44,176 nucleotides of DNA from Gemmatimonadota bacterium (lineage in GTDB: Bacteria; Gemmatimonadota; Gemmatimonadetes; Gemmatimonadales; Gemmatimonadaceae). The translations under genes and the position numbers were made by a program. The notes beneath the pieces were generated by a model. It made no database searches. It saw nothing but the letters and a program-made list of their open reading frames with translations, and was not told the DNA's origin. This document shows positions 42,012-44,176 of this stretch, piece by piece. Every line of letters starts with the position of its first letter. The first letter of the stretch is position 1. The stretch covers positions 1 to 44,176 of the forward strand of contig JANYBD010000019.1 of assembly GCA_025360995.1 (NCBI GenBank), read 5' to 3'.

Positions 42012-43343
42012 CTATTTCGTAATCTTGTGCTTGTAGTCCAAATTCGTCTTATACTCTCGCTCCGGACTGCCCGTATAAATCTGCCGTGGACGCGCGATCT
42101 TCTGCTCCTTGTCCAACAGCATCTCCTCCCACTGTGCTAACCATCCAGCCGTACGCGCGATCGCGAAGAGCACGGTGAAATAATCGGTCGGGAAATGCAG
42201 CGCCCGGTAAATCAGTCCCGTATAAAAATCGACGTTCGGGTACAGTTTCCGTTTGATGAAGTACTCATCAGACAGCGCAATCCGCTCGAGTTCGAGCGCG
42301 ATCTCCATGTCTTTGCCAACGCCCGCAATCTTGAGCACGTCGTCGCACAACGCCTTTACGATCTTGGCGCGCGGGTCATAGCTCTTGTACACACGGTGAC
42401 CGAAGCCCATCAACCGCGCCTCGCCCTTGCCCGTCTTCACACTCTCGATGAACGCCGGGATGTTTTTCACATCGCCAATGTCGTGCAACATCCGCAGTAC
42501 CGCTTCGTTGGCGCCGCCATGCAGCGGGCCGTACAGCGCTGCAATGCCGGCGGCAACCGCTGAATACGGATCCACGTGCGATGACCCTACCGCCCGCACG
42601 GCGTTCGTCGAGCAGTTCTGCTCGTGATCAGCATGCAGAATGAACAGAATGTCGATCGCCTTCGCATACACCGGGTTCGCCTCGTACCGCGGCTCCGACA
42701 TGCGGGCAATCATCGACAAATAATTCTCGGCGTACGGCAACGCGTTGTCAGGGTATACGTACGGCATCCCTTTCACGTGACGATACGCAAACGCCGCAAT
42801 CGTCGGCATCTTGGCGATCAATCGGATGAACGCGATATCGCGCTCCCGCTCGTCATAGATGTTCTTGGCCGTCGGGTAAAAGGACGACAGCGCGGCAACG
42901 CTCGCGCCGAGCATCGACATCGGATGCGCGTCGTAGCGGAACCCTTCCATGAAATGCTTGATGTTTTCGTGTACGTACGTGTGGTACGTGACATCCTCCA
43001 CGAACTGGTCGTATTGCGGCTGCGTCGGGAGCTCACCGCGACGGAGTAGCCACGCCACTTCGAGGAAGCTCGCCTTGCCAGCCAGTTGATCAATTGGATA
43101 GCCGCGATAACGGAGGATCCCCTTGTCGCCATCAATAAACGTGATGGATGAGCGGCACGACGCGGTGTTCATGAACGCCGGATCGTAGCCCATGATGCCG
43201 AAATCGTCGGCGTTGACCTTGATCTGCTTCAGGTCGGCCGTGCGAATCGTTTCGTCGACAATCGGTGCGGTGTACGTTTTGCCGGTGCGGGAGTCTTTGA
43301 TCTCGAGGTGGTCGCCGGATGGTGTTGCAGTCGGACCAGACAT
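42012..43343 (-). CDS. gltA: Citrate synthase
   Basis: A 443-residue type II citrate synthase that condenses acetyl-CoA and oxaloacetate at the entry of the TCA cycle. Catalytic residues are in the expected places: His in GPLHGGANEAVL, His in GFGHRVYKSYDPR, and Asp in NVDFYTGLIY. The N-terminal beta domain (SCRSSITFIDGDKGILRYRG) is typical. ATG 43343 is chosen over an ATG 33 nt upstream because the conserved start follows closely. It has its own terminator at 41945-41978. The S9 peptidase gene diverges 294 nt away. Confidence 0.94.
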   Translation of the reverse strand: MSGPTATPSGDHLEIKDSRTGKTYTAPIVDETIRTADLKQIKVNADDFGIMGYDPAFMNTASCRSSITFIDGDKGILRYRGYPIDQLAGKASFLEVAWLLRRGELPTQPQYDQFVEDVTYHTYVHENIKHFMEGFRYDAHPMSMLGASVAALSSFYPTAKNIYDERERDIAFIRLIAKMPTIAAFAYRHVKGMPYVYPDNALPYAENYLSMIARMSEPRYEANPVYAKAIDILFILHADHEQNCSTNAVRAVGSSHVDPYSAVAAGIAALYGPLHGGANEAVLRMLHDIGDVKNIPAFIESVKTGKGEARLMGFGHRVYKSYDPRAKIVKALCDDVLKIAGVGKDMEIALELERIALSDEYFIKRKLYPNVDFYTGLIYRALHFPTDYFTVLFAIARTAGWLAQWEEMLLDKEQKIARPRQIYTGSPEREYKTNLDYKHKITK

Positions 43344-43421
43344 GGGTCGATTCCAGATCTCACTAGATGGTGGCAAGCCGCGAAGCGCTCGGAGGGCTGG
43401 CGCGGGATTGGCGCGGCTTGG

Positions 43422-43438
43422 TGTACTTCAATTGTACA
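43422..43438. promoter_or_regulatory. Short palindrome in the gltA/S9-peptidase divergent region
   Basis: TGTAC (43422-43426) and GTACA (43434-43438) are inverted copies 7 nt apart. On the minus strand TACAAT (43436-43431) lies inside the palindrome and could be a -10 box for gltA, although no good -35 box is seen. The rest of the 294-nt divergent region shows no gene. Confidence 0.3.
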
Positions 43439-43637
43439 GTATTGGCACCCTAATAGGGATTGGGGGCGGGCGGGAAGATGTGAGGAACCGTCCACAGGTT
43501 GAACATTTGAAGGCTCCCGGCGAGCCATTGATGCCACTGAATCTGTCAGCAATGCCACCCAGCGGCGCGTAAGGTTGGATGTGCAGCCCGACCCCGGAGC
43601 TGCACTCTCGAGTGAATTTTTCTGTCTGAGGTTTCGT

Positions 43638-44001
43638 ATGATGCGGTCACTCCGTTCCGTTCCTATCGCTCTCCTAAGCGCACTAACGTTGGCACTCGCG
43701 GCACTGCCGCTTGCCGCCCAAAACTCTCAGGCCATCGTCGCCGCACAGTTGGCCGCCGACCGGGAGCTACTCGCCAAGGAGAGCTATATCACGCCTCCGG
43801 CGGAGATCGTGAGGCTTGTGACTGCGCCGCGTCACCTGAATGTGACACTCACGCAGCCGAGCCCTGACCGCAGACATTTCCTGAAAGAGCAGAGTGACGG
43901 ACTGCCCAGCGTCACGACTTTCGGAAAGCCGCACTACTACCTCGGCGGACTCCAAGTCGATTTCAAGGCCAATCGGGTGCGAACACTGACTACCCGCGGT
44001 G
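43638..44001 (+). CDS. S9-family (prolyl-oligopeptidase-like) peptidase, N-terminal part; sequence breaks into a foldback
   Basis: The start of a secreted S9-type serine peptidase. The signal peptide (IALLSALTLALAALPLAAQ) ends near residue 28. Then come PPAEIVRLVTAPRHLN and QPSPDRRHFLKEQSDGLPS, typical of S9 proteins before the beta-propeller. The catalytic domain is not in the window. After Arg-Gly at about 44000 the plus strand switches to the reverse complement of this same gene. The true continuation (TTRGAVGLQLIDPVTGKTT) is instead readable on the minus strand from 44069 to 44002. The plus frame stays open to 44176 by chance, and that tail should not be treated as protein. ATG 43641 is an alternative start; GAGG lies upstream. 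Confidence 0.78.
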
Positions 44002-44176
44002 GCATTTTTGGGCAGGTCGATCGCCGTTGTTTTACCGGTGACCGGATCGATCAACTGCAACCCAACCGCACCGCGGGTAGTCAGTGTTCGCACCCGATTA
44101 GCCTTGAAATCGACTTGGAGTCCGCCGAGGTAGTAGTGCGGCTTTCCGAAAGTCGTGACGCTGGGCAGTCCGTCAC
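43894..44176. repeat. 108-bp near-perfect inverted repeat at the window end (foldback)
   Basis: Positions 43894-44001 are the reverse complement of 44069-44176 at 107 of 108 positions. The only mismatch is C43970 versus A44100, which changes GCC to GCT in an Ala codon and is silent. The 67-nt spacer (44002-44068) is unique. The left arm is inside the S9 peptidase gene in its normal order. The spacer and right arm read correctly only on the minus strand. This is most simply a foldback or chimeric join at a contig end. Confidence 0.9.

Follow-up and report, generated by a model that had tools for sequence, protein, structure and literature searches.

In bacteria, tandem inversion duplications at short quasi-palindromes are real chromosomal rearrangements. 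In sequencing libraries, both sonicated and enzymatically cut, single strands can pair at short inverted repeats and then be repaired, which yields fold-back artefact molecules (PMC10908179, PMC8458033). Furthermore, 85% of the chimeras formed in whole-genome (phi29) amplification by MDA are inverted, mostly primed at 2 to 21 nt of complementarity (PMC1855051). The window that we analyzed, 44,176 nucleotides from a Gemmatimonadota bacterium, makes up the whole of contig C152, which belongs to a fragmented bin (298 contigs, 83.5% complete), and it ends in a palindrome. Like the library artefact reads (the PDSM model of PMC10908179 and the artefact chimeric fragments of SRC, PMC8458033), this palindrome has a short natural inverted repeat at its junction, the sequence between the repeats is inverted relative to the reference, and an inverted copy of the flank is present. 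Those artefacts, however, were described in human read data, whereas our case stands in an assembly, at the tip of a metagenome contig. An inverted join at a few complementary bases lying nearby is also shared with inverted MDA chimeras (PMC1855051), although the window bears no sign of whole-genome amplification. The junction geometry is identical to that of the bacterial tandem inversion duplications; however, those are real rearrangements, whereas the window structure occurs only at a contig end and the relatives are intact.

The palindrome at the contig end

The features at this end of the window are given below, with G007 denoting a metagenome-assembled genome (MAG) of the same genus and C240 another contig from the same bin as the window.

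42715..44001, + strand: 100% identity to G007 (~88% elsewhere in the alignable contig), a probable switch of population upstream of the fold-back
43638..44001, + strand: 5' portion of a gene of the S9 (prolyl oligopeptidase) family, which the fold-back cuts short; 100% identical to G007:C222, which has the intact gene (PF00326 on the intact protein)
43894..44001, + strand: left arm of the fold-back
43995..44001, + strand: 7-bp microhomology CGCGGTG at the putative chimeric junction; in the intact gene, its partner CACCGCG follows 67 bp further downstream (alignment to L065/L083)
44002..44068, - strand: spacer, the S9 gene's natural continuation, inverted; equal to the G007 antisense strand, with C240 at 91% over spacer plus right arm
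44069..44176, - strand: right arm, the left arm's reverse complement with one silent difference, reaching the contig end

Each arm is 108 nt long, the spacer between them is 67 nt, and the exact part of the terminal palindrome is 76 bp. The arms differ by one mismatch: position 43970 is C in the left arm, and its counterpart at 44100 in the right arm is T when read in the sense strand. Because this is the third base of a GCC (Ala) codon, the difference is silent. The initial annotation had described a palindrome with a single silent mismatch, and recomputing the arms, the spacer, and the Ala codon bore this out. The palindrome far exceeds what chance would give, and no other inverted repeat in the window has arms of 25 bp or longer within 1 kb of each other. 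The right arm stops at 44176 because the contig stops there, and thus the arm length is dictated by the contig. The minus strand of the arm and spacer reads as natural S9 gene sequence.

The intact gene in relatives and the junction

The G007 contig C222 (public record, Gemmatimonadetes MAG contig GL140_4_k141_481082) has 100% identity to the window over the last 1,287 bp up to 44001. Beyond the equivalent of 44001, it carries the S9 peptidase gene uninterrupted, and the intact product of ~900 amino acids matches Pfam PF00326. The spacer matches G007 on the minus strand only, the sequence between the repeats being inverted relative to this reference, and on that strand the spacer and right arm agree with that part of G007 at all but one of 175 bp, the exception being the T. 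Within the window's own bin, C240 carries the orthologous citrate synthase / S9 peptidase locus intact at ~89% identity. Because the gene is intact in both G007 and C240, the only abnormal point is the join 44001/44002. The comparison with related genomes had been proposed in the initial annotation, and both relatives agree with its claim that the natural continuation of the gene lies on the minus strand of the spacer. Among 60 relatives, we found no match carrying the palindrome junction. At 43970, G007 has C and C240 has A, and the T allele was absent from all genomes searched.

Next to the junction, the G007 sense strand has CGCGGTG just 5' of the join and CACCGCG just 3' of the spacer, so that the fold-back point falls exactly on an inverted microhomology with 7 bp of exact complementarity. 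Of 400,000 inverted joins drawn at random within the contig, 0.07% shared 7 bp or more, and the mean was 0.73 bp. The predicted single-stranded DNA fold of the loop with its flanks closes on the 7-bp stem, and the total fold is not unusually stable.

A spacer flanked by inverted arms could also be an invertible switch or a palindromic regulatory element. Here, however, the arms are coding and single-copy, the gene is restored by neither orientation, and the right arm duplicates coding sequence. In addition, the intact gene of the relatives needs no inversion, none of the relatives has the palindrome, and the palindrome abuts the contig end. We therefore consider such an element exceptionally improbable, and the earlier statement that this is not a phase switch stands.

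Identity to G007 changes along the contig. It is ~88% over 33.5 to 42.0 kb (89% in a test stretch at 20 to 24 kb), 92 to 95% at 42.0 to 42.7 kb, and 100% at 42715 to 44001; C240 has the citrate synthase / S9 locus at the expected 89 to 90%. Judged from these identities, the contig tip, that is, the 1,287 bp leading up to the fold, probably derives from another population. The simplest reading would be that the contig switched inside the citrate synthase gene from its own to a G007-like population and that C240 would be the true continuation of C152. Alternatively, the identity jump at 42715 to 44001 could reflect recent recombination. A tip from another population, if that is what it is, affects the reading of genes near the contig end.

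Other inverted repeats in the bin

In a sample of 110 contigs (1.03 Mb, 210 ends), we searched for inverted repeats whose arms were 25 bp or longer and lay within 1 kb of each other. Arms were counted as single-copy when they were unrepeated elsewhere in the 110 contigs, the C240 ortholog of the C152 case aside. Two inverted repeats in the 1.03 Mb had single-copy coding arms, C152 and C189, and both reach a contig end (2 of the 210 sampled ends in the bin); inside the contigs scanned, there was no single-copy coding fold-back. The C189 fold-back (L131, G000:C189, 10384 to 10467 and 10712 to 10795) lies in a single-copy coding gene unrelated to the S9 gene. It folds at GGATTTTGC versus GCAAACTCC, an annealing site matching at 8 of 9 positions, and the sole mismatch between its arms sits within this mispaired site. 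The whole fold-back is 283 bp in the window and 412 bp in C189, and one library fragment suffices for each, which is a weak test given that arm length is set by the contig end.

These results also bear on the possibility that, in a minority of cells, the S9 peptidase gene truly carries a tandem inversion duplication, which would have arisen in vivo through a template switch at the 7-bp inverted repeat. True bacterial inversion junctions with short inverted repeats are known, but the deduced homology cut-off for true inversions in the same study is at least 12 bp (PMC3411829). Moreover, G007 and C240 are both intact, the structure ends where the contig ends, and an unrelated gene shows a like structure at the C189 contig end. 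A real rearrangement is thus very unlikely.

All of the other inverted repeats in the scan had many copies across contigs and are dispersed palindromic repeats. The terminal fold-back of C16, considered as a second example, is a member of one such family and was not counted. Copies of the dispersed family lie at L038 4523 to 5091, L058 13882 to 14248, L026 13016 to 13285, L124 199 to 555, and L064 12523 to 12746; dozens of partial copies are found in G000 and G007 (84 and 79 matches to one query), and the window holds no clear copy. A short inverted pair of 33 to 36 bp (L038 4426 to 4458 and 4915 to 4950) occurs on many contigs of both G000 and G007, with starts ~77 bp apart in most cases, and is possibly a small mobile palindromic element.

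Origin of the fold-back

The gene is intact in relatives, the microhomology is exact, the structure sits at a contig end, and C189 provides a second case. Taken together, these observations lead us to conclude that the palindrome is almost certainly an artefact of the library or the assembly and no biological feature. The same evidence upholds the initial annotation in its best reading, a contig-end chimera in a metagenome assembly. We think it likely that the palindrome is a self-primed fold-back chimera that formed before assembly and was caught at the contig tip. A single-stranded piece of the intact S9 gene with CACCGCG at its end would fold back and pair with CGCGGTG upstream across a 67-nt loop, and a polymerase would extend the folded end by copying the upstream strand, most likely during end repair in library preparation. 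In such a scheme, a strand U-I-L-I' folded at I/I' would be extended to U-I-L-I'-U'. The complement of U-I-L-I'-U' is U-I-L(inverted)-I'-U', which equals the window end letter for letter except for the one mismatch, and a second template is unnecessary for this structure. MEGAHIT would then follow the chimeric reads off the contig end and stop when the reads run out. The stage at which the chimeric molecule arose and its uptake by the assembler are both inferred.

The lone mismatch between the arms has no unique explanation and counts against the self-primed fold-back. One alternative is an intermolecular chimera, still an artefact, in which the 7-bp microhomology let a strand from one strain anneal to a strand from a related one, followed by extension. 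The bin contains related populations, and two strains would account for C at 43970 in one arm and T in the other. However, the stretch differs from G007 only once in 175 bp, the T allele is found in none of the genomes searched, and a sequencing or PCR error explains the mismatch equally well if the left arm was merged with ordinary reads. We therefore regard an origin from two strains as unlikely. With a self-primed fold-back, assembly may have merged the left arm with ordinary reads, whereas any private or erroneous base would persist in the right arm, and thus the silent difference needs no two genomes. The initial annotation had taken this difference to point to two related genomes rather than to error, a step that does not follow when a single fold-back molecule is enough.

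By default, MEGAHIT discards k-mers seen once, and therefore at least two reads or rescued k-mers would be required, which counts against a fold-back artefact. Contig ends overlap by exactly 141 bases in 16 of the 38 overlapping ends, which fits MEGAHIT with a final k of 141, and the relative's contig name, GL140_4_k141_481082, includes k141. The available parts of the reports on glacier-fed stream projects describe enzymatic fragmentation, 150-base reads, MEGAHIT, and MetaBinner (PMC12684718, PMC11834409). The relative's name fits these projects, and we infer that the relative or the window originated in a project of this kind. An inverted chimera from whole-genome (phi29) amplification, for which the high share of inverted joins among MDA chimeras and their short priming sites speak, is quite unlikely: there is no sign that the sample was amplified, fold-backs are few in the 1.03 Mb, and for the probable source project, to which the window would belong if the link through the relative's name holds, the available part of the description gives enzymatic fragmentation and six PCR cycles and does not mention MDA. 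In short-read MAGs, fold-back chimeras may sit at contig tips, where they cut genes short and resemble palindromes or switches, a point of value for quality control only. A k = 77 de Bruijn overlap was also considered as the source of the exact 76-bp terminal palindrome and was rejected, the commonest contig-end overlap being 141.
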